A stretch of DNA of 64,000 nucleotides from Deltaproteobacteria bacterium (lineage in GTDB: Bacteria; Desulfobacterota; Desulfuromonadia; Geobacterales; Pseudopelobacteraceae), in NCBI GenBank assembly GCA_021781535.1, contig JAJXWO010000016.1, forward strand, positions 1 to 64,000, in the 5' to 3' direction. This document shows positions 1 to 38,303 of the stretch, one piece after another. Position numbers and translations under genes: made by a program. The notes under the pieces are model-generated. The model saw nothing but the letters and a program-made list of their open reading frames with translations. It searched no databases and had not been told where the DNA came from. Positions within the stretch are counted from its first letter, which is position 1. Each line of letters begins with the position of its first letter.

Positions 1-257
1 AGGACGACGGCGACGGCGACGACGATGATCGCGTTGAAGATCCACTGCGGCGCCGGCTTGACGACGGTCTGGCTGGTGTCCGGCAGCGGCAGGCCCGAGA
101 TCCGCGGCATCTGCGTCGGCTGCGAGCTCGGGACCTGCATGAGAGGCCCGTGAGGGTCGAGCGTCCCCAGGCCGCCGATGCCGGTGCCGGCGCCCATGCC
201 GAGCGTCACGAGGACGACGGCGGCGCCACCCACGACGCCGTACGCACGGGCACCCAT
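1..257 (-). CDS. Actinobacterial membrane protein, N-terminal fragment (runs off window)
   Basis: About 85 residues are visible; the gene continues past base 1. The ATG at 257 is the only possible start because a TAG lies four codons upstream in frame. The N-terminus is hydrophobic and rich in Ala, Gly and Val, like a signal anchor. A Pro/Ser/Thr-rich stretch follows, and then a second hydrophobic run (FNAIIVVAVAVV) starts at the window edge. GC and codon use match the DUF4349 gene beside it and not the rest of the window. The two-helix layout recalls N-termini of actinobacterial DUF4129-type proteins, but too little is present to name a family. Confidence 0.5.
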   Translation of the reverse strand, partial: MGARAYGVVGGAAVVLVTLGMGAGTGIGGLGTLDPHGPLMQVPSSQPTQMPRISGLPLPDTSQTVVKPAPQWIFNAIIVVAVAVV

Positions 258-278
258 GCGCCAACCCTAGTGGGGGGG

Positions 279-1202
279 TCAGTGGGGCGTGTCCCCGCCG
301 TCCGCTGGGCCCGCGGTCGTCGGAGGACGACGGAGACGGCGGCGTACGAGCCACACCACGGGCACTCCGACGACCGCCAGCGCCACGAGGAACGGGAGTA
401 GCGCACCGAGGACGGTCGACAGGCCGAGGGCGAAGACGACGAACGCGTGCCACCCGGCCTTGAGCCCGGCCAGGAATCCCGTCTCCGGCGCGGGCGGGGT
501 CTGGACCACGGGGACGCGGCTCAGGGTCACCGTGATGGGACTCTGGGCGACGCGCTGGGCGAGCGCCTTCTGCTGGGCCAGCAGCGACTCGAGCTCCGAC
601 TCGCGTGCCGTGAGCTCGCTCTCCACCTGGGCGATCTCGGCGACCGACCCGGCCCTGGTGAGCAGGTCCCGGATGCGGGCGATCGAGGCGCGCATCGTGG
701 TGATCCGCGAGTCGACGTCGGCGACCTTGGCCGTGACGTCCGTGCTGGCGATCGTCCGCAGGGTCACCTCGCCGATGGCTGCGATGTCGGTGAGAGCGGT
801 GTCGAGCTCGTCGGCCTGAACGCGCAGTACGACGGTCGAGACCGCGTACGCGGACTTCTCGCCGCCGCTCACGACGTTCTCCATCGTCACCGTGCCGCCG
901 TGGCCGAGAGCGATGGCACGCAGCCGGGTAGCCGCCTGGACGACGTCCGGCACGACGACGGTCATCGTGGCGGACCGGATGATCTGCTGGGTGTCGACCG
1001 TGGGTGCCTGCGGGACGGTGCCCGTCTTGCTCTCATCGGTCTGGGCCGGCAGCGCACCGGGCTTGGAGACGGTGCCCGAGTTGGGCACGCTGTCGGCCTG
1101 ACCCGCGGAGCTGCTGCTCGTCCGCGTCGGGCTCGAGCATCCGGCGAGAAGGGCGCACGCGATGGCCAGCGGAACGAGGACCCGGGCCGAGATGAGGGAC
1201 AT
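279..1202 (-). CDS. DUF4349 domain lipoprotein (actinobacterial)
   Basis: This 307-residue protein starts with a lipoprotein signal peptide whose lipobox is LLAGC (Cys at about 22). A Ser/Thr/Pro linker follows, then a DUF4349 domain with its usual plan: a beta segment (IIRSATMTVVVPDV), a long coiled coil rich in Glu, Leu and Ala (about 165-225), and one C-terminal membrane helix (LPFLVALAVVGVPVVWLV) followed by an Arg-rich tail. This predicts an envelope protein tethered at both ends. DUF4349 has no established function. The start is supported by AAAGGAC just upstream, although that site lies in an inverted repeat. GC content and codon use are of high-GC Gram-positive type, unlike everything right of 1.58 kb. 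Confidence 0.85.
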   Translation of the reverse strand: MSLISARVLVPLAIACALLAGCSSPTRTSSSSAGQADSVPNSGTVSKPGALPAQTDESKTGTVPQAPTVDTQQIIRSATMTVVVPDVVQAATRLRAIALGHGGTVTMENVVSGGEKSAYAVSTVVLRVQADELDTALTDIAAIGEVTLRTIASTDVTAKVADVDSRITTMRASIARIRDLLTRAGSVAEIAQVESELTARESELESLLAQQKALAQRVAQSPITVTLSRVPVVQTPPAPETGFLAGLKAGWHAFVVFALGLSTVLGALLPFLVALAVVGVPVVWLVRRRLRRPPTTAGPADGGDTPH

Positions 1203-1206
1203 GGCC

Positions 1207-1236
1207 GTCCTTTCACGATGTGAACACTGAAAGGAC
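1207..1236 (-). repeat. Inverted repeat covering the DUF4349 ribosome-binding site
   Basis: GTCCTTTCA at 1207-1215 and TGAAAGGAC at 1228-1236 form a perfect 9-bp stem with a 12-nt loop. On the minus strand the second arm contains the AAAGGAC ribosome-binding site of the DUF4349 gene, so the RNA hairpin could hide it. No T-tract follows, so it is not an intrinsic terminator. Confidence 0.5.
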
Positions 1237-1247
1237 GTTCTGGGCTC

Positions 1248-1578
1248 TCAGACCGTTGACGCGACCGGCAGCTCGAGCCACCCGTACCGGCACTCGATGT
1301 GCCCGCCCGCCGCGAGGTGGTCGAGCATCCCCCGCTGCAGCCGCGTGTCCCGGGGCAGGTCGTGGCGCGGCGTCGTGGGGGCGCGGAACACGAAGTCGAG
1401 GGCCGACTGGTCCGACTCGCGCGCTGTACGGAAGAGGCGGTAGCGCGCCCCGAACCTCGCGATGTTGGAGCCGGGGACGATGCTGCCCAGCTGCGGGTCG
1501 AGCAGCCACGAGTCGCACGTCGCGTAGCGGATCGTGCCGAGCTCCGGGAAGTGGGCGGCGAAGAACTCCTGGGCGCGG
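1248..1578 (-). pseudogene. C-terminal fragment of GNAT-like acyltransferase (actinobacterial), cut at junction
   Basis: The last ~110 codons of the frame that stops at 1248 are unrelated to the TPR protein they are joined to. They read as the C-terminal GNAT-like domain of actinobacterial acyltransferases: FFAAHFPELG, then CDSWLLDPQLG, SNIARFGARYRLF, LDFVFRAP and a final LAAGGHIECRYGWLELPV. In intact relatives this domain follows an N-terminal acyltransferase domain of similar size, which is missing. The fragment shares strand, composition and spacing with the DUF4349 gene downstream. I take it as the 3' end of a real gene whose 5' part was lost at the chimeric join near 1578. Confidence 0.7.
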
Positions 1579-4500
1579 TTATTGCGCAGATCATAGGCCA
1601 TTGCCCAGCGGGAGCCAAGCGTGCGGTCGATGGCAAGCGCTTTTTCAAGCGTTTCCAGCGCCGTGGCGTATTCTCCAGCTTCACGCTGCACGAGGCCGAT
1701 ATTATTCAGCGTCGTCGCGACTTCATCACGCCGGACAGCCAGCTTTTCAGCCCGCTCCAGTGCCCCGTGCAGTTCAAGCTGGGCTCGCTTGTTGTCGCCC
1801 AGAGTCCACCAGATCAGGCCTCCGGTATTCTTCACCATAACCTGCTCAAGCGGCCATTTTTCAGCCAGAGCACTCTTCTCCACCTGCTCGCGCAGGTCGA
1901 AGGCCTCCTGGTAGCGTCCCTGGAACCAGGCGTTATTGGCCTGTTCCAGCACTATCCGCATTTTCGTACGCAGATTCTTTGCACCGACCTTTGCCAGTGC
2001 GTTGGTGTAAAGCACGGCGGCGGCAGGAAAGTTGCCGAGCAGGCGCTGACAGCGCCCCCGTTCAAGAAGAGTTTCGGCTTCCAGAGCTGCGTTGCCCTCC
2101 TTTGCATAGATATCTCCGGCCTGGGCATAATAGCGCTCGGCAACGGCATACTGGTTGAGGCGCAGGTCATAGATGCGGCCGAGGTTCCGGTATTGCTCCG
2201 CCAGCGGCATTTCATCCTTCAAGGTCCGGCGCAGACCGGCCGCTTCCTCGAAGTACGTCCGGGCCGCACCAAAATTGACCGCATTTTCCATCACCACGCC
2301 AAAGTCAGCCAGCGCCGCCGCCTGTTCCTTCACCATGCCGAGATCGGCGAAGATGCCAACAGCCTCTTTTAGTGAAACTGCGGCAGCGGAGAAGCGTTCG
2401 GCGTTCCCCTGCAGCAGACCGAGCCGCAGCAGGGCATCGGCATGCTCGGGTGAATACGGCTTTTCTTTGGCCACCCCCTTGACCAGCGCATCGGCGTGGA
2501 GTATCGCCCGGTCGGTAAACCCGGCGGCAAACGCGCTTTCACGGGCGTAGCGGTGCAACTGGGTGCGATACTTTGCCAGGGAAGGATTTTCAGCGACGAT
2601 CGTCAGCGCACTTTCAAACAGGGAGAGCGCTTTCGGATATAACCCGGCGTTATGGGCCAGCACTCCTGCTTTGCCGTATTCGGTGAAACGGCTTTTGCCC
2701 AGTTTTGCCGCCTCGGCTGCATCCGGCCCCCAGTCACCGATCAGGAGCCAGCCTGGATGGAGCTCTGTACGGGCATCGCCGACCGACCGGCGCGCATATG
2801 CGGCGACGAAAGCTTTTGAATCAACTGTCGCACCATTGCCCGGTGCGCCATCGGCCAGAAGAAGCGACGGAATCCCCTGCAGCGCGGCCAACTGCCCGAG
2901 AAAATAGCCCTGACGTAGACCGGCATGGGGAGCAATCACGAGCGAAAGATTCTCCGCCGCACTCAGTTCGTAAAAGAGGTGGCGATGACCCTTCTCATCA
3001 TCCCATAACGGCAGCGAGTAACCGCTCCCGCCACTGCGTGACGGGACTTCAGGCAGCAGACCTGCACGCGCAGGAAGGACCAGCGTGTGGGCATCGGGGA
3101 GGCGGGCGCTCATCGGTGATGACGGGAGTTTGGTAAACGGTTCGCCTCTCTGCCACCAGCCGGCCGGATCAAGTAGCTGGCGCCGGAACGGCTTGCGCTC
3201 GGAGAATGACAGCAGAAGATGGGTGGCGCTCAAGCCCCAGCTGGTAACCGGAGCGGTTGAAAACTGGGCTGGTTCCTCATAGGCGGCCAGCACCGGCGGC
3301 ACCACGGAAAGCCGGGCGTCAAGCGTCCGCCTGTCAACCGTCTCGGCAATAATTCCGGCCGTGCCGCCAACAGTAAAGAGCAGCCAGCGCGTACCATCGA
3401 GTGGTGTAAAGCGGAGCAGGGTCTTGCCCGACAGCGTTTCAAGGACATCGATCAGTTCAACCGGTTGCGGTGAAATCAGCCGGCAGAGTTTTCCCCCTTT
3501 TCCGGCAGCACACTCCCTGTTGAAGGACGTCTGAATGGAACTGAAGCGCTGCTGTGCGGCCTTGAGTGCCTCGGAGTGCGGCTGCGTGGCTGCATCCGCT
3601 GGCCGGGACAGCCTGCTCAAGTCAACCGATGCTGCCGCGAGCCGCAGCGCACCTTCTCCGGCCAGGGCATAATATGAGGGAATACGTTCAAGTTTCGTTC
3701 CGAAAAGGTCGTCAACAACAGCCTGTTCCTGTTGCAGCCGCAACTGCAGATAATTCTTGTCGGCAGCAGCCGCCTTGGAAACCGCTCCACGGAGCCGGTC
3801 GATCTCGGCCAGATGGGGCGCAGCGGCTTGAAACCGAGCGGCAGTGGCTGGATCATCCAGACCGAGTGTTCCCCGGCCGAGCAGTTGGACCCGTTCCAGT
3901 TCGCTCAGCTTTTCCAGCAGGGCAAATGACTGCTCCGGATTTTTGGCGGCACGCTGCTCAAGACGCGGTGCGAAGCGCTCCATAAGTTCACCGCGCTGCA
4001 GATCATACTCCGCCAGCGGCAGATGTTCGAGTACCCCAAGTGCCTCGTCATAGCGCCCGAGCGCTGCAAGAGCACGCCATTCAAGCGAATATGCGGCTGT
4101 GCTGCGGGCTTCATCAAGAGCAGCAGTACAGGCCGATTCTGCGCCATCGGCAAGGCCGAGCGCCATCAGGACCGCACCGCGGTTAAGCTGGGCGGCCACC
4201 CGCTGACGCCGCTGCTGATGGAGCACCTCCGGGTCTCTGCTGTCGGCGGCTGTCAGGAGCGTCCTGTCCCACTCCTCCAGCGCTTTGTACAGCAAGGCCT
4301 GACGACCGCCATCATCCGGTATTGCCTGAACCAGTCGGGCAAGCAGCGTTCCGGCATCATTGTGATAGCGGCCAGAGACAAGCGGCGGGAGGACGGTACG
4401 CGAAGCGTCCGCCAGGCGGGAGACCTGCGCCTCTATACCAAGGAAATCGGCGATATCACCCGACTTCTGTTCCGTGGCCAGCAGTTCTCCCCAGTTAACC

Positions 4501-7500
4501 AGGTTGAGCATTGCACTGACCGGGTTTCCGCCCTGCAGAGACAGGAGTGTCGAACGGCGAAAACCGTCTGCGGCATTTTTCACGTCACCCAGGGCATAAT
4601 CAATATGAGCGGTCCGGTGCGACAACAGCGCGACTCCGTACAGATCACCCACAGCAATGGCGCTGTTATCGGATGGATATTGTTTCAGCTGATTCCTGAG
4701 CAAAACGGCCGCAGCCGCCGGCTCACCCAGTTCGGACTGGATGCGGGCCAGATAAACCTCGGCGAGCCGTTTTTCCTGCACGGCGCTGAAGCCGAAGGCA
4801 GCAGCGGTAGAGCCACCCTTGTCAAGTGCCACATTTGCGGAGATTTCCACGAGGCCGCCGCTCCGTTTTGCCGGCGCCTTAGATTTTGGAGGGTTCGTGG
4901 CGATCAGCGTTAGCAGTTCGGTGAAACCGTCACGGCTCAGACGCAACAGCCGCTGTTGCTCCTCGCCGGAAGCGGCGTGCGCCTCCTTATAGGCGGCAAT
5001 GCTGGCCGAACGCCGGTTGGAGGCGAGATTGCCACTAAACCCGAGCCCCTTGTTCAGCCTAAAGGCGGCATCAAACTGCTCGCGGGCTGCCGTATAGCGA
5101 TCCGCTTCAAGATACGCCAACCCGAGTCGATCGTGGATTTCCGCTGTTGTTTCCACCAGGCGCGGAACCGCGTCCAGCTCTTTTTCCACTCCGGAGAGCA
5201 TGCTGTTCAGCTCTGCAGCACTATCGGCAGCCCCCTCTTTGTTCCAGGCGGGAGCCGAGTCCAGCAAAGCCCGTTGCCGGTTCAGCAGCAAGCGCACCGA
5301 ACTGTCAAAACTCGTCCATCCGGCCGATGGAGGCGCCTCCGGCGGGGAGACTCCGAGGCGATCAAGTTCCGCACTGATTGACTGTTGCTCACCCAGTGCA
5401 GCTTCAGTGGACGGCGGCCGTTCCGTTCCGGGAAAGAGCCGTTCCACGACCCTTCTCGACAGGCGGCCGAACAGTTCGAGCGGACGGGACGGGTTCAGAC
5501 GGGCCTCAGCCAGCTGAAGCGCCCTGAGATAGCCGGTGATCGGCGCTTCTTTTTCGCGCATCTGAAAGGCAACCGCAGCATAGCGCTGCTGAAAGATCAG
5601 CTCGGTATCCGGATTGTCAAACGGGATCTTTGCAGCAAGCCTCTGGCTGTAGAACGTCCAGGCGGTCGCCTTGCTGCCGAGCAGAAATGCGATATTGCCG
5701 ATATTCAGGTCCAGGTTGGCGCGGTTTTCCGGCTGTTCCAGCGGCCGGTTGAGCAGCCAGGCGCGGCGATAGAGTGCAAGCGCCCGCTCCAGGCCGCCCC
5801 GTTCACCATGCACCGTTTCTGAAATCTCGGCCAGATATCCCCTGGTCTGGGGTGGATACTCGGAAGACGGCATCCGCTCCGCCGCCCGCGCGATCAAACG
5901 GTCCGCCTCCTTCAGACTCTCCGTGCCCGGCAGATAGGTCAGGGCAAGTCCGGCTGCGTACAACAGCACCGGATCGTCTGGGTAGGAGTGCAGCATCTGG
6001 CGGTACCGGTCAAGCAACTCCCGGGCTTGCCCCATGGCGGCAACCGATTTGATATAGCCGCGATGCGCTTCGACGCTCCGTCCGTCATAGCGGATAAGAT
6101 CAAGAAATATCGAACGGGCAGCGGCAACCTCTCCCAGCCGGTACAGATTTTCACCCGCCGTGACCGTCTTACGGATGTAGGCGGCGCGGGCGAGCTGGTA
6201 GAGCGGCGTGTCTTCCGCCTGTTCGGTCATTTCCGTTTCGTACAGCGCCTTCGCTTCCGCATAGCGCTCCTCGCGGTAGAGCACCTCTGCCAGCGCAAAG
6301 CGCGCCGCCGCCGTCGGGGTCGGCAGGACGGGGAACTTTTCCAGCACCGTGCGGTAGGCATCCTTGGCCCTGGCCCACTCGTTCGCTCGATAGGCCACGT
6401 CACCCTGGCGGTTCCACGCCCCCATCGCCAGGCGAGGCAAAATAGTCCGGTACTGTTCCGCCAGCGCCGAAAGCGCCGCATGATCCGGGTGATCGCGGGG
6501 TGAAACCTGATCCAGAACGGCAGTGATCGCCGCCTCAGCCCACTCTTCCTGGTCGCCGTAGGCCGTAGCCACCTCGACGAGCGCCGCAACCGCTCCCGGA
6601 CCTTTTTCAAGTTTCGCCAGCAGGACAGCGCGCCTCAAGGCGGCCTCAGCCTTGAGCGGGCGGGCAGCATCCTTCAGGATGGCGACCTGTTCGGCCAGTC
6701 CGACGGCGGTCAGTTGATCCGCTGCTCCTGCACCGAAATCAGCCAGAAGTCGTGCGGAATCGATCAGGCAGCGGGCGGCAGCATCGTCGCCTTTCCCCGC
6801 CGCAGCAACGTTCATGGCCTTTCTCGCCTCACGGAGTATTTCCTGGCGTCGCTGCAGCAGCACGATATCGTTGCAGCGCTGCGTCGCCCCGGCTCTGATC
6901 CGGGCTATTTCGGCCAGAGCGGCTTCCTGCGGGAAACGGCTGTAGCGGCGAGCCACCGCAGCGTACTGAGCCTCGCCTTGTGCGATTTCACCGGCCCGCT
7001 CCATCAGCGAGGCAAGCGCCAGTCCGGCCTCTGCTCCGGACCGCGTCGGGGACTCTTCCCGCGCCAGCACACGGGCGCACGCCAAACGGGCATGGGCCGG
7101 ATCGGGGGGCTGACGTTCCAGGATGATGCGCGCCAGCGCCCATTGCTCAGCAACGGTCGGACGATCCGGTATTTCACCGGATGCGGGGAGGGACATCACC
7201 TGACCGCCACCGGCCAGACCGGCGACAAAATAAAAATCATCCCCCGCCGGAAGCGGCGCCACCGCCATCAGTGCCGCAGAGGTAAGGGGAGAAACCAGCG
7301 GGAAGCCGTCATCGCCGGTCCGCTTCAGATGCAGCCGACAGATCTGTCCCGGCTCCCGACCGGTCGCTGCATCCCCCCCGACAGCAGTCTGCCGGGTAAA
7401 AAGCAGCGTATCCGCACCTTCCCAGGCGGGATACAGATCGCGTTCAGCGCCGCTCGTCAGTTGGGTAAGCTGCCCTCCCCGTTCGTTCCACTGCCAGAGA

Positions 7501-8168
7501 TCACCATTCGGATCGGATTTCCGCGACACGAACACCCATCTATTCCCATCATGTGCCGGGGCCGCAAAAGCTGCATCGATGCCGATCGGCAATTGCTCGC
7601 TCCGGTTATCCGTGAGATGAATCCGCATCAGTTCACGAACATCCGCGCCCGGTTGCTGACGCTGGTACACGAGAGCCGAACCATCAGCCGTAAACACCGG
7701 CGCATCGTCGGCAGATTCCCGGCCGGTCAGCCGCCGGGGTACCGAGTTCGCTTTCGTCACATCAAGCAGCCAGATATCACCCTTGACATCATCTTGTGCA
7801 TCAACAAAGGCAACGAGTGTTCCTGATGAATTGAGCGCCGGGGCGGCAAGGCGTACCGGGCTTGCATGGAGCAGCCGCGGCAGTTCCGGAACAGCTGCAA
7901 AGGTATAGAGCCAGAGCTCGTCCCCATTGTCCCCCCGTTCAACGGTAACCATCCGTGTACCATCGAGAGTCCTGGCTACGTACAGAACCGGGCGGGAGCT
8001 GAAGATGGCCGGTTGGGGTGAAATTTCCGGACGCGAGCGGGGTGCCGGACGGGGTGCCGCCGGTGCCAGCAGATCATCGCCGAGAGGCAGCGCCGACGCT
8101 CCGGATGAGCAGGCCAGTACCACCAGTACGAAAAGCCCGGCTATCTGCAGTACCCGCTGCCGCTTCAT
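1248..8168 (-). CDS. Giant periplasmic beta-propeller/TPR protein with degenerate CHAT-like region (3' end chimeric)
   Basis: Residues 1 to ~2196 belong to this gene; the final ~110 are foreign (see the fragment at 1248-1578), so the true C-terminus is missing. Order of parts: signal peptide with a possible weak lipobox (VLAC); a TolB/PD40-like propeller at about 50-340 with repeated SxDGxxLxF-type blades; many TPR-like helical pairs at 350-1560; a CHAT-like region at about 1570-1800 (LLRFTPLDGTRWLLFTVGG, later LSLVIAPHAG and a helix ending in FVAAYARR); and canonical TPRs at 1815-2190. The position where CHAT proteases carry Cys (ACETG) reads APHAG, so protease activity is unlikely. The start is the ATG at 8168, which overlaps the upstream stop as ATGA; an ATG 12 bases further upstream is also in frame. 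Coupling to the DUF1318 and AsmA-like genes suggests a joint envelope role, which is inferred. Confidence 0.75.
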   Translation of the reverse strand: MKRQRVLQIAGLFVLVVLACSSGASALPLGDDLLAPAAPRPAPRSRPEISPQPAIFSSRPVLYVARTLDGTRMVTVERGDNGDELWLYTFAAVPELPRLLHASPVRLAAPALNSSGTLVAFVDAQDDVKGDIWLLDVTKANSVPRRLTGRESADDAPVFTADGSALVYQRQQPGADVRELMRIHLTDNRSEQLPIGIDAAFAAPAHDGNRWVFVSRKSDPNGDLWQWNERGGQLTQLTSGAERDLYPAWEGADTLLFTRQTAVGGDAATGREPGQICRLHLKRTGDDGFPLVSPLTSAALMAVAPLPAGDDFYFVAGLAGGGQVMSLPASGEIPDRPTVAEQWALARIILERQPPDPAHARLACARVLAREESPTRSGAEAGLALASLMERAGEIAQGEAQYAAVARRYSRFPQEAALAEIARIRAGATQRCNDIVLLQRRQEILREARKAMNVAAAGKGDDAAARCLIDSARLLADFGAGAADQLTAVGLAEQVAILKDAARPLKAEAALRRAVLLAKLEKGPGAVAALVEVATAYGDQEEWAEAAITAVLDQVSPRDHPDHAALSALAEQYRTILPRLAMGAWNRQGDVAYRANEWARAKDAYRTVLEKFPVLPTPTAAARFALAEVLYREERYAEAKALYETEMTEQAEDTPLYQLARAAYIRKTVTAGENLYRLGEVAAARSIFLDLIRYDGRSVEAHRGYIKSVAAMGQARELLDRYRQMLHSYPDDPVLLYAAGLALTYLPGTESLKEADRLIARAAERMPSSEYPPQTRGYLAEISETVHGERGGLERALALYRRAWLLNRPLEQPENRANLDLNIGNIAFLLGSKATAWTFYSQRLAAKIPFDNPDTELIFQQRYAAVAFQMREKEAPITGYLRALQLAEARLNPSRPLELFGRLSRRVVERLFPGTERPPSTEAALGEQQSISAELDRLGVSPPEAPPSAGWTSFDSSVRLLLNRQRALLDSAPAWNKEGAADSAAELNSMLSGVEKELDAVPRLVETTAEIHDRLGLAYLEADRYTAAREQFDAAFRLNKGLGFSGNLASNRRSASIAAYKEAHAASGEEQQRLLRLSRDGFTELLTLIATNPPKSKAPAKRSGGLVEISANVALDKGGSTAAAFGFSAVQEKRLAEVYLARIQSELGEPAAAAVLLRNQLKQYPSDNSAIAVGDLYGVALLSHRTAHIDYALGDVKNAADGFRRSTLLSLQGGNPVSAMLNLVNWGELLATEQKSGDIADFLGIEAQVSRLADASRTVLPPLVSGRYHNDAGTLLARLVQAIPDDGGRQALLYKALEEWDRTLLTAADSRDPEVLHQQRRQRVAAQLNRGAVLMALGLADGAESACTAALDEARSTAAYSLEWRALAALGRYDEALGVLEHLPLAEYDLQRGELMERFAPRLEQRAAKNPEQSFALLEKLSELERVQLLGRGTLGLDDPATAARFQAAAPHLAEIDRLRGAVSKAAAADKNYLQLRLQQEQAVVDDLFGTKLERIPSYYALAGEGALRLAAASVDLSRLSRPADAATQPHSEALKAAQQRFSSIQTSFNRECAAGKGGKLCRLISPQPVELIDVLETLSGKTLLRFTPLDGTRWLLFTVGGTAGIIAETVDRRTLDARLSVVPPVLAAYEEPAQFSTAPVTSWGLSATHLLLSFSERKPFRRQLLDPAGWWQRGEPFTKLPSSPMSARLPDAHTLVLPARAGLLPEVPSRSGGSGYSLPLWDDEKGHRHLFYELSAAENLSLVIAPHAGLRQGYFLGQLAALQGIPSLLLADGAPGNGATVDSKAFVAAYARRSVGDARTELHPGWLLIGDWGPDAAEAAKLGKSRFTEYGKAGVLAHNAGLYPKALSLFESALTIVAENPSLAKYRTQLHRYARESAFAAGFTDRAILHADALVKGVAKEKPYSPEHADALLRLGLLQGNAERFSAAAVSLKEAVGIFADLGMVKEQAAALADFGVVMENAVNFGAARTYFEEAAGLRRTLKDEMPLAEQYRNLGRIYDLRLNQYAVAERYYAQAGDIYAKEGNAALEAETLLERGRCQRLLGNFPAAAVLYTNALAKVGAKNLRTKMRIVLEQANNAWFQGRYQEAFDLREQVEKSALAEKWPLEQVMVKNTGGLIWWTLGDNKRAQLELHGALERAEKLAVRRDEVATTLNNIGLVQREAGEYATALETLEKALAIDRTLGSRWAMAYDLRNNRAQEFFAAHFPELGTIRYATCDSWLLDPQLGSIVPGSNIARFGARYRLFRTARESDQSALDFVFRAPTTPRHDLPRDTRLQRGMLDHLAAGGHIECRYGWLELPVASTV
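1570..1590. other. Composition and homology breakpoint (probable assembly chimera)
   Basis: Left of about 1578 the DNA is GC-rich with actinobacterial genes; right of it the DNA is Geobacter-like. The frame stays open across the join by chance. The exact base cannot be fixed by eye; the change lies within the GCGCGG/TTATTG transition. No repeat, integrase, tRNA or insertion-sequence end is visible there. Confidence 0.8.
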
Positions 8169-8764
8169 AGCGTCCGCCACCGTCCATCGGCATCCTGCAC
8201 CTTGGAGCCGGGGGCGCTGTTCTGACGGTTTATCTTGGCAAAAACCTTGTGAATAGCCGGCAGATCCTTGATCGTGAAGTTTTCATTGGTCTGCACCACC
8301 CGCATCATCAGCACTTCACGTGACCGGTTGACCTCCTTCACCACCTGCTGGAATTCGGCTTCGCCGTAATTGGCGGCAAACAGCTTCAGCTCTGCGGACG
8401 CCACCTTCGGCGGTTCACGGGTAAAGGGGGTCAGAAGGCCCTCCTGATTCTCGCCTACCCAGCCGAAACGCTTGAAGGTCTCCACATCATCGGCGTGAAA
8501 GGCGATGGTTTCCATCGCCCGGATGGCGTCAACCTGCTCCGGTGTATGACGGGGCGGTGCATCTATTTTTCCGGTCGGCGCGACGCCCCGTACCGATGCG
8601 ACCAGCAGCATATCCTCACTCAGGCTGTTGTAGGTTCCGAGCACCTGGTTTTCAAGAGACGTCCGCTCGCTGACCACATTGACATCAACCTTGGCAAGGG
8701 TACAGCCGGAGATAACAAGCGCCAGGCCAAGCGCCACTGAAACTGGTATAAATCTACTGTTCAT
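8165..8764 (-). CDS. DUF1318 (YdbL-like) lipoprotein
   Basis: This 199-residue protein has a lipoprotein signal peptide with lipobox VISGC (Cys at about 21). The C-terminal half matches the DUF1318/YdbL plan: FGWVGENQEGLL, a central helix with EVNRSREVLMMRVV, NFTIKDLPAIHKVF, and an ending GSKVQDADGRWRTL that parallels the GxYVQxxNGQW ending of E. coli YdbL. In E. coli, YdbL is a periplasmic partner of the lipoprotein YnbE, which binds the AsmA-like protein YdbH. Here the segment just after the lipid-attachment Cys (KVDVNVVSERTSLENQ) could serve as the YnbE part, making a natural YnbE-YdbL fusion; that is inference. The start overlaps the AsmA-like gene by 11 bases, and the stop overlaps the giant TPR gene as ATGA. 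Confidence 0.8.
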   Translation of the reverse strand: MNSRFIPVSVALGLALVISGCTLAKVDVNVVSERTSLENQVLGTYNSLSEDMLLVASVRGVAPTGKIDAPPRHTPEQVDAIRAMETIAFHADDVETFKRFGWVGENQEGLLTPFTREPPKVASAELKLFAANYGEAEFQQVVKEVNRSREVLMMRVVQTNENFTIKDLPAIHKVFAKINRQNSAPGSKVQDADGRWRTL

Positions 8765-11700
8765 ATATCCTCCGCTTCAATGATAATTCCCCTTTGGGAC
8801 CGACAACCAGCATATCAGCCCGCACCAGGTCGAGCAGGGTGCGCAGCGCCATGACCGCCTCCCTGTTCTTGACCAGTTCCTGACGGAGCGGCAGCTCGGA
8901 AATACGCACACGCTCAACCTTCGGCAGATCAACCGCCACACCTTTGACCTGCGCTTCCCCCTCCATACTGAAGGCGCCGTCGACCGCAGTGGCCCGAAGC
9001 CCAAGCAGACGGCCATGCCGCAGCATCTTGCGCTGAGAGACCACCTGTTCGTTGCGCTCGTACGGATCAAGGCTGAAAAGCGCCCGTTCGATCGTATTGG
9101 GCCCTATCTTGCGCAGATTCAGCGCAAGCCGCAGCTGTTCGAACAGCTCCCGTTGTTCGGGTGTCAGCGGCGCAGTAAGACTGATCTCGCCGGTGATCTC
9201 GGCATCCTGTCCCGCCTCCAGCCTTCTGGTCTCTTTCGGCAGCAGCTGCGAAATATCAAGATGTGAAAAAGAACCGGCAGCAGCGATGGCCGGAACCACC
9301 GGCTGCAGGTCGAATACGCCGCGGGCGAGGAGCGTCCCCCCGAGAAGATTTGCCTGGAAAAAGCTGAGGCCGCACTCTTTCTGGCTGAAGAGCAGATCAC
9401 CCTCCAGCGCGGTAAGCTCCAGCGGCACACCGGACACCTGTGTTGTAACGCGCCGGATCGAGAACGAACGGGTGCCGCGAACATCACCGCGCAAATCATT
9501 ATGGATCCGGCCGATAATTTCAGCCGCGCCGGGGTTGGCCCTTGTAACGGGCGGCGGCCGGACAAGGGCCGTCGAAAGAGGAATCCAGGACTCTCCCCTG
9601 GGCGCAGCCAGTGCATAGGCTTGATTAACGGCAATATCGGAGCGGAGACCCTCGACCTTTGTCCCGTTGGCAAGCTGAACGCCAAAATCGTTTGTTTTCA
9701 ACGTGCAGCGGAGCGCAAGTTCTCGCCCGGCACTAAGATCGACCCGGACACCGCCGCTGATATCGCCTGCCAGATCAAAACCGGGGAGAAGCTGTTTCAC
9801 TCCCCGGGAGAATACCCCCTCAACATCGGCAAACAGAGTGGCGTCCAATCGTTTGATCAGTGTCGCCGTGCTGAATGGCTCTTTTTCGTCCATCAGCGCA
9901 TCGATGCGGCTCACGGTGAGTTCGCCCTCATGCGAGACAGCCAGCGGATCGACCCGCAGCTGTTCGCTCACGCGAAAATCCCGCCAGCCGGAAAGTTCGC
10001 CGTTGAAGGTAAACGAGCCATGCTGGGGCGGCACTGTACCGGCGCCCCCCGGCAGGCCGCTCACGCCTCCAAACAGGACTCCTCCCTCAAAACCGACTGA
10101 TTCACCTTTTTGTGTTGTCACAACCCGCACATCCGGCTTCGTCCGCACCCCCGTCACCGTAATGGTCCCTTTGGCCGTAGGAAGTGTGGCGGAGACCGCA
10201 TCAAGGTTTACCCCCAGTTCAAGCGTGTCAAACAACGACAATCCGGCTCTGGCACTCCGCAACGGATGTTTCTCGGCGGCAGGAGTCTTTTCCGGCAGCG
10301 GTGCGGTCATGTTCCAGCGCGCGGTCACGATGCCACCCGCCTTCAGCCCGGTCGGAACAAACGGGACGGCAAACGGCATGGCGCGCCGCAGGTCAAGACG
10401 CGCAATGCCACTGGTAATGGCACGCAAGGGTGACGCACCCGAAAGGGCCGCCTCAGCAGCAAGCTGCAGAAAATCACCCGCCGCAACATGTGCTGATGCA
10501 CGCTGCAGAGTCGGCAGCCCACCCTTATCAGCCGGAAGATGAAAGCCGGCGACTGACAGAGACGCTATGAGCGGGATCGGAACAAAGTGTTTTCCGGCCG
10601 CAGTACCCTGCAGTGAGGCTGCGGTAACGGCGAACTCCGGGATATTTGCCTCAATTTCGCCGTTCTCGGCGGCTCGGGCCAGAACCCGGAGCTGCTCATG
10701 AACTTTTTCGACGGTCAACTGCGCTCCAAGCGCAACGCGATCAAGGTCAACGCCCTGGGTAAGAATCACAGAGGCAGCGACTTTACGCGGCGAAGCGCTT
10801 TTGAGATTGAGATCCGTAACCGCCACCCTGAGCCTCCCGTGCGCACCCTGAATAACAAGCGGCTGGGCACCGGTGAGGACGGTACGCTTGAGGCTCCAGA
10901 GGAGGTCCGCAGTCAGCCTGGCCGGCAATGCGGCGGTCAACGGACATTCCGCACGTTCGACGAGCAGATCAACATCCTCTGCGCTCAATTCCCCTTTTTT
11001 AAGCGCCAGCCGCACGCGCGGAAGTTTGATGCCGAACCCGGCAACGGCAAGATTGCCATTATTTTTGGGACCAGTCAGATGAAGCGAGAGGGAACGGAGA
11101 GAAACCTCTCCGGCAAGATCCTTGACCGGAGTGCCAGGCGGGAGAAACGGGGCAGCCAGAGAGTGCGCGCGGGCCAAGTCAAGACGCAGAGGGCCGAACG
11201 TGACGTCCAGCGACCGGCCCGGCTCTGTCGGATGGGTAACTTTCGCGCTCCACGCGGCATCGATCAATCCCGGGATCGCCATGGCGCCGCCGGGGAAATC
11301 TACCCGCTGGGTACCATGGTCGGTGACGATCTGCTGCCGCAGCAACAGATTAATCGGGCCAACCCGCCGTGCCTTCAGCGAACCGCCACGGGAGGCGAGT
11401 CCGCCCCCTTCCAGTGTCAGCGTGGCGCGCAGATCACGGTTCGCATCGCTCTTCGCCCGGACCAGAACCACAATAGTCCCCTCAAGCTGCGGAACCGTGG
11501 CGGGAATAAACGGCTGGGCGACCGCCAGTAATACGGGCAGATTCAGCGTGCAGTGCGCCGCAAAACCGTCATTCTGGCTGAGTCCGCCGGACAGGGTCAT
11601 ACTCGTGCCGGGAGCTGCAGCAGCGACGGCAAAGAGCGCGGAGGAGAGATGAATCCGCCGCTCTTTTGTTACCAGATCGCTCACCTTCGCGTTCAGGCTG

Positions 11701-12356
11701 ACGTTCCCGATCTTTCGCCCATCCACCGATATCAGGCCGCTCACCTCCGCCGTAACCGGCTTGGCTGCCAACGAGGGCATCGCAAGGCGAAACGAGAAAT
11801 CCTGCAGCAACAGCTGCCGCCCAGGTATCCGGTACGAGAGCTGCAGTGGCGCCACGTCAACCATGACGTGCAGATCAACCGGCAACGGGTAGTCGAGTCT
11901 CTGGATGCGCTGGATCGACTCCGCCAGAAGCGTCAACGGATCTTTACCCGATGGTGGAGGTGGTGGCTTGGCGGGGCCGGGAGCAAGTTCGGCCCGAACG
12001 TTGCGTATCCGGACCACGAGGTTGATGCCGAAGCGTCCGTCGACTCCGCGACCGACTGATGGGGCGACAACGATCTGCTCAACAGCGGTTTTCAGCAGCG
12101 GCGCGACTCCGTCGCCGAGCATAAGCCCGGAGAGTGTCAGGCCGTCGGACCAGCTCATGGCGAAGCCGGACCAGGTCACATCTCGTTTCATGGTGGTGGA
12201 GAGGGAGTGCTTAATCCGGCTCTGCACCGCATGGCTGCTGACAAACTCCGGGAGGAAATACAGGCAGACCAGCAGCAGCGACAGGACGACGACAATGGCG
12301 AGCGCCGCAATTTTGAGGACTCGGCCGATATGTATCCTGCGCATGACGTTTTTCAT
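8754..12356 (-). CDS. AsmA/YdbH-like inner-membrane protein
   Basis: About 1,200 residues. A short basic N-terminus leads into one membrane helix (LAIVVVLSLLLVCLYFLP). A very long run of amphipathic beta-strand and Gly-rich turns follows, typical of AsmA/TamB/YdbH proteins that form hydrophobic grooves for phospholipid transport between the membranes. The early segment V-x-S-R-I-x-H-S-L followed by L-x-L-x-G-L-x-L-G-D is characteristic of the AsmA N-terminal region. Family placement rests on architecture and on the DUF1318 neighbour, as in E. coli ydbH-ynbE-ydbL. I chose the ATG at 12356; an in-frame TTG at 12386 gives ten more residues but is less likely. It is first in a coupled operon of three. 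The substrate is unknown. Confidence 0.75.
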   Translation of the reverse strand: MKNVMRRIHIGRVLKIAALAIVVVLSLLLVCLYFLPEFVSSHAVQSRIKHSLSTTMKRDVTWSGFAMSWSDGLTLSGLMLGDGVAPLLKTAVEQIVVAPSVGRGVDGRFGINLVVRIRNVRAELAPGPAKPPPPPSGKDPLTLLAESIQRIQRLDYPLPVDLHVMVDVAPLQLSYRIPGRQLLLQDFSFRLAMPSLAAKPVTAEVSGLISVDGRKIGNVSLNAKVSDLVTKERRIHLSSALFAVAAAAPGTSMTLSGGLSQNDGFAAHCTLNLPVLLAVAQPFIPATVPQLEGTIVVLVRAKSDANRDLRATLTLEGGGLASRGGSLKARRVGPINLLLRQQIVTDHGTQRVDFPGGAMAIPGLIDAAWSAKVTHPTEPGRSLDVTFGPLRLDLARAHSLAAPFLPPGTPVKDLAGEVSLRSLSLHLTGPKNNGNLAVAGFGIKLPRVRLALKKGELSAEDVDLLVERAECPLTAALPARLTADLLWSLKRTVLTGAQPLVIQGAHGRLRVAVTDLNLKSASPRKVAASVILTQGVDLDRVALGAQLTVEKVHEQLRVLARAAENGEIEANIPEFAVTAASLQGTAAGKHFVPIPLIASLSVAGFHLPADKGGLPTLQRASAHVAAGDFLQLAAEAALSGASPLRAITSGIARLDLRRAMPFAVPFVPTGLKAGGIVTARWNMTAPLPEKTPAAEKHPLRSARAGLSLFDTLELGVNLDAVSATLPTAKGTITVTGVRTKPDVRVVTTQKGESVGFEGGVLFGGVSGLPGGAGTVPPQHGSFTFNGELSGWRDFRVSEQLRVDPLAVSHEGELTVSRIDALMDEKEPFSTATLIKRLDATLFADVEGVFSRGVKQLLPGFDLAGDISGGVRVDLSAGRELALRCTLKTNDFGVQLANGTKVEGLRSDIAVNQAYALAAPRGESWIPLSTALVRPPPVTRANPGAAEIIGRIHNDLRGDVRGTRSFSIRRVTTQVSGVPLELTALEGDLLFSQKECGLSFFQANLLGGTLLARGVFDLQPVVPAIAAAGSFSHLDISQLLPKETRRLEAGQDAEITGEISLTAPLTPEQRELFEQLRLALNLRKIGPNTIERALFSLDPYERNEQVVSQRKMLRHGRLLGLRATAVDGAFSMEGEAQVKGVAVDLPKVERVRISELPLRQELVKNREAVMALRTLLDLVRADMLVVGPKGELSLKRRIYEQ

Positions 12357-12462
12357 AGAAGACCTATAAAACCAACCGGCTGACAACTGCCCGGGCCAGG
12401 AGAACGGTTTTGAAACACGTATGAGCTGAATTGTGGTGAATAGGGACTATTTATATAATGGG

Positions 12463-12912
12463 TCAGTGGCGGAGAAATGTTGCTTTAATCCCGTCAATGA
12501 GCTGGCGCTTCTCGGCCTCAGTCAATCGCGCTTCCGGATGAGCCAATCGGAATTGAATAGGCGGCATTTCTCCTTCGTTGATTTCACTGGCGATCTTGTC
12601 AGGATTCTCTGCTTTACGCGCGCCATATTGCCAATCGGAAAAGTTCAGCTTACTTCGCCCTTCGTCCACATCGTGACGCACGAGCCAGGATGCCGGAGCA
12701 ATGTGAGAGTACCATGGCCAGACGGTCTCGTTACTATGGCAGTCGAAACAGGCACGTTTTGCAAGGGCGCGAGTAGCAGGGCTATCCCATGATGGCTCGC
12801 GGACAACGGGTGGATTGGTGTAGCTCTTGCCGTAAGGAATTGCCTGAATCAGTATCAAAGTTGCTACAGTTGCGACCGCTGATACTACGATTTTTTTTGA
12901 CTTCGTTGACAT
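12463..12912 (-). CDS. Haem-binding domain protein with one CxxCH motif
   Basis: This 149-residue protein has an N-terminal signal anchor (VVSAVATVATLILIQAIPYG) and a single c-type haem site, CFDCHSNET, followed by VWPWYSHIAPASWLV. That motif and the tail N-E-G-E-M-P-P-I-Q-F identify the small haem-binding domain family found in Bacteroidetes and Geobacter-like bacteria. Its likely place is the periplasmic face of the membrane, with haem attached by the cytochrome c maturation system. The electron partner is not shown. AGGAGAG just upstream supports the start. It is transcribed divergently from dbpA across a gap of about 150 bases and probably stands alone. Confidence 0.85.
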   Translation of the reverse strand: MSTKSKKIVVSAVATVATLILIQAIPYGKSYTNPPVVREPSWDSPATRALAKRACFDCHSNETVWPWYSHIAPASWLVRHDVDEGRSKLNFSDWQYGARKAENPDKIASEINEGEMPPIQFRLAHPEARLTEAEKRQLIDGIKATFLRH

Positions 12913-13065
12913 GTGCCCACTCTCCTTAATCAGAAATTGATATTTTTACACGTAATTCTTCCCCATCATAACGCCGACTGCTGCTATTATAGCAAACCAA
13001 ACCGGATTCACAGGTTTCATAATAAGTACCAGTGTATGAATCACATGTCAAAAAGAGAGTATCCC

Positions 13066-36686: not shown

Positions 36687-38222
36687 TCACTGGCTATCGA
36701 TTGTAAATCCATTTTCGATAAAAAGATCCTTTACGATGCGATCCATGGGACGATCTGTCAAAAACATACCACCGCCGGGAAGCAGAGGATCATCCAGCTT
36801 GAAACCTGACATTTGCAGCGAATATCCCGCCGCTTTATCCTGCAGTAACGTCTGTTGGGCAAAAACTCCTTTTATCTTCATTCGAGAGATTATTTTTTCC
36901 GACATCTTACGGAAATTATCATGCGGTTCAATAATGACGACATGGTAGCCCTTGGTTTCAAGAATTCTGAAGAGGGTATAATTTATCGGATCACCATCAA
37001 ATATGGTGACGACATACCGTTGGCCACCACGCTCGAAATATCGTTCGGCCTTGACCGACAGGGAGATGCCGTTATTATCTGCGGCAAAAACATCAATACG
37101 GCGCCCCAGCACTGAAGATACTGAAAAAGCGGATAAAATTGAGTCAATCATCTCTGGTTGTTTTTTTGCCGATATGTAGTGAATTGCGCGCGAGTCTCGC
37201 TGCGCAAAGGGTTTGAGGGTAGCAAACGGTTCATAGAGCGAAAAGCCCTCTTTTTGGAGGAACACGCCAATAGAGGAAGGAAGCGACGTGCGCCCGCTGT
37301 TCACGAGAGCGATCTCCTGCTTGATAAGACTATCTGCCGTTTTTTCTATTTTGAAATCTGCTTGAACCGTAAGCTTCGGATCAACGCCAAATTCCATGCT
37401 AAAATTTTCCTCAACAGAGTAAAATCCCGCAGCTCCAAGCAGGGATGCCATAAAGCGTTTCGTTCCGGATGGCGCTTCAGTCACAATTCGCACAGAGGCA
37501 TCTTTATCTTCTATCAATGACTTTACGAGCGGCGGAATGCTGCCGTTCTGGTCCAGCACGATGCGCCCCCCATCCATCCTGGCGAATGTAGGATAGCGTT
37601 CCGGGTCCAGAGTTAACGAAAAGGTTGTTGTCTGCAGTGCCAGCGGTTTCTGTAACCCTTTTTGCGCCGGAATTATCTTATTCCACACATCATGTACCCT
37701 GGTAACAGCTTCCTGTTCAGATAGTTCGGGGATTGAAGATTCGAGTTTGAATGATTGTTCGGGAACAGTATTTGAGCCGGATTTCTGTATATTGCCACTC
37801 AGTACGTCATGAGACAGTATGAGTGAGCCATCAGAACGCCTATGAAGTGGAGGGACACTGATTTTTTGACCGATTTTAAGTCGTTTAATATCGTAAATGT
37901 TGTTTTCACGTTTTATTTCTTCAATAAATGACTCGGCGTCATCATTGCTCAACCCATAATCACGCATGAGAATTTTAAAAAGGTTATCGCCGGCTTTTAC
38001 CGTGTAGAAGCCCCCTTTGGCAAACGTGGATGATTGCTTTGCGTGGGAATGGATCGAGCGCTTTCTTCCGGTATGGTGGGGTTTTGCAACACTTTTCAAG
38101 CCCGACAGTGTCTGTGGATCAAGATCAAAACGCGGATCAATTATCGCATATGCGGCAGTCACATGGATCAGCATGCCGATACAGACGACTAAGGGTAAGC
38201 GGATCTTTAAAAAGTGAGGCAT
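36687..38222 (-). CDS. LysM domain periplasmic protein of unknown function
   Basis: 511 residues from the ATG at 38222, chosen because GGAGAC lies about 5 bases upstream. A signal peptide (LPLVVCIGMLIHVTAAYA) is followed by a basic His/Ser/Lys linker and one LysM peptidoglycan-binding domain near 72-125 (FYTVKAGDNLFKIL, then LKIGQKISVP). The remaining ~370 residues are an alternating alpha/beta region without a family I recognise. It ends with LTDRPMDRIVKDLFIENGF. It is probably transcribed with the pseudo-receiver gene upstream (81-base gap). Joint occurrence with a PilB-like ATPase suggests a wall-anchoring accessory, as FimV is for type IV pili; this is inferred. Confidence 0.75.
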   Translation of the reverse strand: MPHFLKIRLPLVVCIGMLIHVTAAYAIIDPRFDLDPQTLSGLKSVAKPHHTGRKRSIHSHAKQSSTFAKGGFYTVKAGDNLFKILMRDYGLSNDDAESFIEEIKRENNIYDIKRLKIGQKISVPPLHRRSDGSLILSHDVLSGNIQKSGSNTVPEQSFKLESSIPELSEQEAVTRVHDVWNKIIPAQKGLQKPLALQTTTFSLTLDPERYPTFARMDGGRIVLDQNGSIPPLVKSLIEDKDASVRIVTEAPSGTKRFMASLLGAAGFYSVEENFSMEFGVDPKLTVQADFKIEKTADSLIKQEIALVNSGRTSLPSSIGVFLQKEGFSLYEPFATLKPFAQRDSRAIHYISAKKQPEMIDSILSAFSVSSVLGRRIDVFAADNNGISLSVKAERYFERGGQRYVVTIFDGDPINYTLFRILETKGYHVVIIEPHDNFRKMSEKIISRMKIKGVFAQQTLLQDKAAGYSLQMSGFKLDDPLLPGGGMFLTDRPMDRIVKDLFIENGFTIDSQ

Positions 38223-38303
38223 TTTGTCTCCGCACAGGTACAATATTGTTAAGATACGATTAAATATTGGCGGGTTATAACGTGCGCCAAAATATAAGTC
38301 AAC

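Follow-up and report, generated by a model that had tools for sequence, protein, structure and literature searches.

The window examined here is the whole stretch of 64,000 bases that forms positions 1-64000 of contig C103 (70,000 bases) of assembly G000, and near its left end a single minus-strand open frame with a GTG start (1248-8180, 2,310 aa) runs through an abrupt change in composition and gene content. An earlier note had described a shift of GC content and gene family near 1578 within one open frame, and both descriptions hold: among breakpoints tried from 200 to 3800 within positions 1-4000, 1578 is the best single one for GC (0.715 in 1-1578 versus 0.619 in 1580-8180), and the encoded protein matches GNAT_C on the left and, by Pfam, TPR families on the right. 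The accompanying shift in codon use is confirmed for third-position GC, the only codon measure taken, which is 0.964 to the left of the seam (111 codons, including the seam codon and the stop) versus 0.655 to the right (2,200 codons), where the maximum among 2,089 windows of 111 codons is 0.811. The frame is indeed continuous across the seam, with its length amended from 2,306 to 2,310 aa; the shorter figure would mean a slightly later start. The features are as follows.

1-1578, minus strand: foreign actinobacterial fragment (Propionibacteriaceae-like), almost certainly wrongly joined to the host contig (blastn against L007-L011)
3-257, minus strand: beginning of an actinobacterial gene, truncated where the contig starts (N-terminal sequence common to L007:5815-6570)
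279-1202, minus strand: complete actinobacterial gene for a DUF4349 protein of 307 aa (PF14257, E 1.3e-57; gene order as in L007)
1248-1577, minus strand: actinobacterial GNAT-type acyltransferase, C-terminal 109 residues only (PF18164 GNAT_C, 42-142; intact protein in L007)
1578-1580, no strand: the false seam (L007-L011 alignments end at 1574-1578; identity to C125 from 1580; GC breakpoint at 1578)
1580-1666, no strand: the true link, 87 bases that recur exactly as the final 87 of C125 (57779-57865 of 57865)
1580-8180, minus strand: N-terminal 2,200 codons of a large host TPR/CHAT protein (C-terminus on C125, L004:11056-12864, minus strand)
8165-8764, minus strand: gene for a DUF1318 protein, upstream neighbour, host DNA (PF07027, E 2.8e-8; region colinear with G016)
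8754-12386, minus strand: gene for a 1,210-aa protein without Pfam match, host DNA (0 families at E 0.001; 8164-12342 is 73% identical to G016)

An actinobacterial fragment left of the seam

The left-hand fragment aligns by blastn with L007 (JAJZQV010000088.1; MAG: Actinomycetes bacterium SKS1.bin60) over window 1-1577, in one colinear piece at 85.2% nucleotide identity, and with each of L008-L011 in two or three pieces at 71-83% identity; in all five loci the last aligned piece stops within the narrow interval given above. Relatives of the GNAT piece are encoded at 19 loci (genome_contigs search), the best five of which show 75-89% protein identity and come from MAGs titled Actinomycetes, Propionibacteriaceae or Propionibacteriales. 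L007 has its GNAT, DUF4349 and DUF4129 genes arranged as in the window, and the product of L007:5815-6570 matches PF13559 (DUF4129) over residues 168-237, a domain that belongs to the downstream part absent from the window. A search of a plasmid collection with window 1-3000 returned one record, from Nonomuraea, at 66% identity over 340-626.

The earlier note had read this side as an actinobacterial GNAT-like domain deprived of its N-terminus, and the comparison with NAT_N/GNAT_C acyltransferases (PF18082, PF18164) agrees. The intact L007 protein (305 aa, 88% identical to the window piece) carries NAT_N and a full GNAT_C, whereas the left fragment matches GNAT_C only, in those last 109 residues and from profile position 42 of 142 onwards, so that its start is missing. 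About 196 N-terminal residues are absent from the window; in L007-L011 the GNAT frames measure 306-309 codons and the part matched by the window begins at residue 199-202. By this comparison, what the window contains is the final third of an actinobacterial gene of ordinary kind.

At the seam itself, base 1579 differs from C125, and the actinobacterial match there is also uncertain. No repeats of at least 10 bases were found within 1400-1750, no tRNA within 1-13000 and no integrase among the Pfam matches of six scanned pieces (279-12386); the claim that repeat, integrase and tRNA are all lacking at the seam thus stands for the first and the last, and for the integrase it amounts to none among those Pfam matches. 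Comparison of the expected actinobacterial continuation with the true TPR sequence revealed no evident common stretch, and for this reason a chimeric read fits the seam better than a repeat-driven error.

The host TPR/CHAT gene and its continuation on C125

When G000 was searched with window 1300-3000, a second perfect match appeared, between 1580-1666 and C125:57779-57865. Read inward from this end of C125, a 602-codon open frame follows in the phase of the window's TPR gene; its first residues repeat the end of that gene, and then come more TPR repeats, a CHAT domain (PF12770, E 1.3e-56, 192.6 bits against a curated cut-off of 24, profile positions 3-289 of 289; outside the window) and a stop. 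The right-hand piece had been described as a TPR protein without its C-terminus, and here the missing end is found. Given the exact 87-base end overlap, the matching frame and the C-terminus that the window lacks, the right-hand side has its true neighbour in the end of C125. Over both contigs the host gene encodes TPR repeats and then, at its C-terminus, a CHAT domain, as in TPR/CHAT proteins (PF12770, PF13424), and it is nothing unusual within its own lineage.

A search for the 573-aa C125 piece covered 58 genomes including G000, the 57 others being 36 of the same genus and 21 of the same order. Thirty of the 57, namely 25 of the 36 same-genus and 5 of the 21 same-order genomes, match it at 73-97% identity along 571 or more of its 573 residues, and 27 of these 30 have it in an open frame of 2,706-2,853 aa, the host protein being about 2,800 residues long in relatives; the frames of the other three (1,208-1,549 aa) reach the contig start by their coordinates. 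The remaining 27 genomes comprise 17 without a match, 8 with a weak or short one, G026 with a 241-residue piece at 98% identity, and G055 with a split gene. In this last genome (G055:C1:3225174-3226888) the TPR/CHAT gene lies in two frames (2,297 and 728 aa) with the break early in the C-terminal part, which reflects either a frameshift or a sequencing error.

Both halves were then sought together, by means of the C125 piece and the 440 window residues adjoining the seam, at 29 loci from the 30 full-length relatives. In all 29 the window part (69-93% identity) precedes the C125 piece in the same frame, and the two overlap by their common residues only. The GNAT piece occurs at none of these 29 TPR loci and, reciprocally, the TPR piece at none of the 19 actinobacterial GNAT loci (tblastn, E up to 1e-3 in both cases). 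Another genome with the same join, which had been named beforehand as the finding that would speak against a misjoined contig, was accordingly sought in 48 loci and not seen in any. The protein read across the seam, held from the outset to be probably unreal, fares no better: its join is missing from both sets of loci and the true C-terminus lies elsewhere.

The contiguity is plainest in G016, where a single contig of 369,552 bp aligns with successive blocks of window 1581-31818 at 73-86% identity, in the window's order, and beyond them with the C125 tail at 80-82%. There the window blocks and the tail (L004 9671-12866) meet with nothing between them and with an 86-base overlap that is the stretch common to C103 and C125; the TPR/CHAT gene is one frame of 2,820 aa, and window 1-1580 has no match within the 40 kb examined.

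These results bear directly on whether the frame could be a genuine fusion gene, that is, a TPR protein ending in a GNAT-type domain. Such a gene would account for a single open frame of 2,310 codons, but its GNAT_C domain would be truncated at profile position 42, its third-position GC would jump from 0.655 to 0.964 at the seam, and the true C-terminus, on C125, is conserved at the identities given above in the 30 full-length relatives. The relatives' uninterrupted TPR/CHAT frames (27 of 57 genomes; 29 of 29 loci) and the contiguity in G016 also speak against it, and we consider a fusion gene scarcely credible. That the frame stays open across the seam is coincidence; with both genes on one strand, the odds of this are about 1 in 3.

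Directly upstream of the giant TPR/CHAT gene lie the genes for the DUF1318 protein, which we take to be YdbL-like, and for the 1,210-aa protein, presumably AsmA/YdbH-like; G016 has the same arrangement, with products of 199, 1,202 and 2,820 aa. Nine of ten more window genes scanned between 12.9 and 61.3 kb match common bacterial families (polynucleotide phosphorylase, IF-2, ribonucleotide reductase etc.), and the tenth, a 518-aa open frame at 36687-38243 whose neighbours are otherwise common genes, has no Pfam match at E 1e-10. Window 1580-12400 has a GC of about 0.61 versus 0.50 elsewhere in the window. The fall from about 0.61 to 0.50 near 12.4 kb raised the question of a second seam there, which was ruled out, the blocks of 1581-31818 being in order on one G016 contig. 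The GC rise over 1580-12400 looks native to the lineage rather than like a second seam, because in G016 GC rises similarly around the TPR/CHAT gene cluster (about 0.54-0.58 versus about 0.50).

Origin of the join

Taken together, we argue that the C103 seam is almost certainly an assembly chimera, in which about 1.58 kb of actinobacterial DNA is fused to the middle of a host TPR/CHAT gene. The misjoin suspected in the earlier note is supported by the C125 partner, by the relatives' uninterrupted gene and by the left-side colinearity up to the seam, and the two sides, when placed separately by nucleotide search as it had advised, go their own ways, the left to L007 at 85.2% and the right to the C125 end, with synteny in G016.

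The alternative at the level of the organism would be a real horizontal transfer, in which part of the host population, perhaps a minority, carries an actinobacterial chromosomal insert, caught in transit, in its TPR/CHAT gene and C125 derives from an insert-free strain. A seam without common sequence could also result from illegitimate insertion, and the probes that were tried found no other actinobacterial piece in G000. However, the C125 overlap reaches the host side of the seam itself, which places an uninterrupted allele within G000 too, and a second junction did not turn up. The fragment is an ordinary piece of actinobacterial chromosome: it is colinear with L007, it breaks off inside a gene at either end, and none of the genes seen in it belongs to a mobile element. 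Since the GNAT piece is also absent from all 29 loci of relatives, we regard such a transfer as very improbable, if slightly less so than a fusion gene, and return to an assembly chimera.

G000 consists of 133 contigs (3.8 Mb), its completeness being rated at 94.93% and its contamination at 8.87%; the number of contigs and the contamination lead us to infer that it is metagenomic. Within it, WhiB had no match and GNAT_C matched only the window's own copy, the actinobacterial fragment itself, used as a probe, found no further actinobacterial piece, and a gene near the L007 GNAT gene, for a ribonucleotide reductase relative, had no close copy, only the host's own at 32-33%. A bin rich in actinobacterial contigs is thus unsupported by the few probes tried (WhiB, GNAT_C, the fragment and one ribonucleotide reductase).

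How the join arose can perhaps be outlined. The assembly graph would have forked at the seam. The correct path would run from there into the true gene on C125, and a second path into the actinobacterial fragment, the second arising perhaps from a spurious low-coverage edge or from chimeric reads, one or a few in number; C103 would then have retained the wrong path, and the right one would have been severed as C125. In a de Bruijn assembly, a join without a common k-mer normally requires at least one spanning read, and hence a molecule or read bearing the C103 join probably existed.

The length of the overlap offers a hint as to the step concerned. When the outer 400 bases of both tips were compared for 40 of the 133 contigs, four other tip pairs had exact common stretches, of 127, 126, 126 and 126 bases (in three of the four the stretch sits 5-19 bases short of one tip), which suggests a final assembly k near 127; the idea that 87 was itself the final k was rejected for the same reason. 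One of the four pairs belongs to a single contig, C113 of G000 (L088, L128), whose opening 126 bases are repeated in direct orientation near its far end, with 9 bases remaining beyond them; this would suit a circular molecule or an element of about 63 kb bounded by repeats. The preset k series of MEGAHIT, in steps of 10, extends to 127. A passage of PMC8036350 gives such a step-10 MEGAHIT series from 27 to 87. As 87, like 127, lies on a ladder of tens from 27, one might guess that the false edge dates from an earlier round at k=87 and from a chimeric read. The 87-base overlap is nevertheless unlike the 126-127 bases at the other tip pairs, so the assembly step is uncertain; the guess has no bearing on the verdict of a chimera.

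Comparison with chimeric contigs and consequences

Chimeric contigs, a known class of error in which fragments of two sources are combined in one contig, are described in the GUNC paper, which also rates misassemblies as relatively rare compared with mis-binning (PMC8201837). C103 resembles the type set out there in having two sources in one contig and a change of lineage along it (PMC8201837). The two sides belong to different lineages (L007-L011 on the left; same-genus relatives and G016 synteny on the right), the true continuation lies elsewhere, at the C125 end, and the join is absent from the relatives of either side (0/29 and 0/19). Here, in addition, the true partner contig is identified, which makes the demonstration of an artefact more direct than a change of lineage would on its own.

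In the light of the C125 continuation, the relatives' uninterrupted gene, the contiguity in G016 and the absence of the join from all loci of both kinds, the 2,310-aa frame is a chimera, an artefact rather than a biological novelty. The first 1,579 bases of C103 deserve a flag as foreign, and the rest of G000, in view of its contamination rating, warrants a check at the level of contigs. Biologically the seam is ordinary and offers nothing new; what the finding provides is a correction of data, removing from a genome in use a false fusion protein of 2,310 residues and, with it, a false case of actinobacterial gene transfer.
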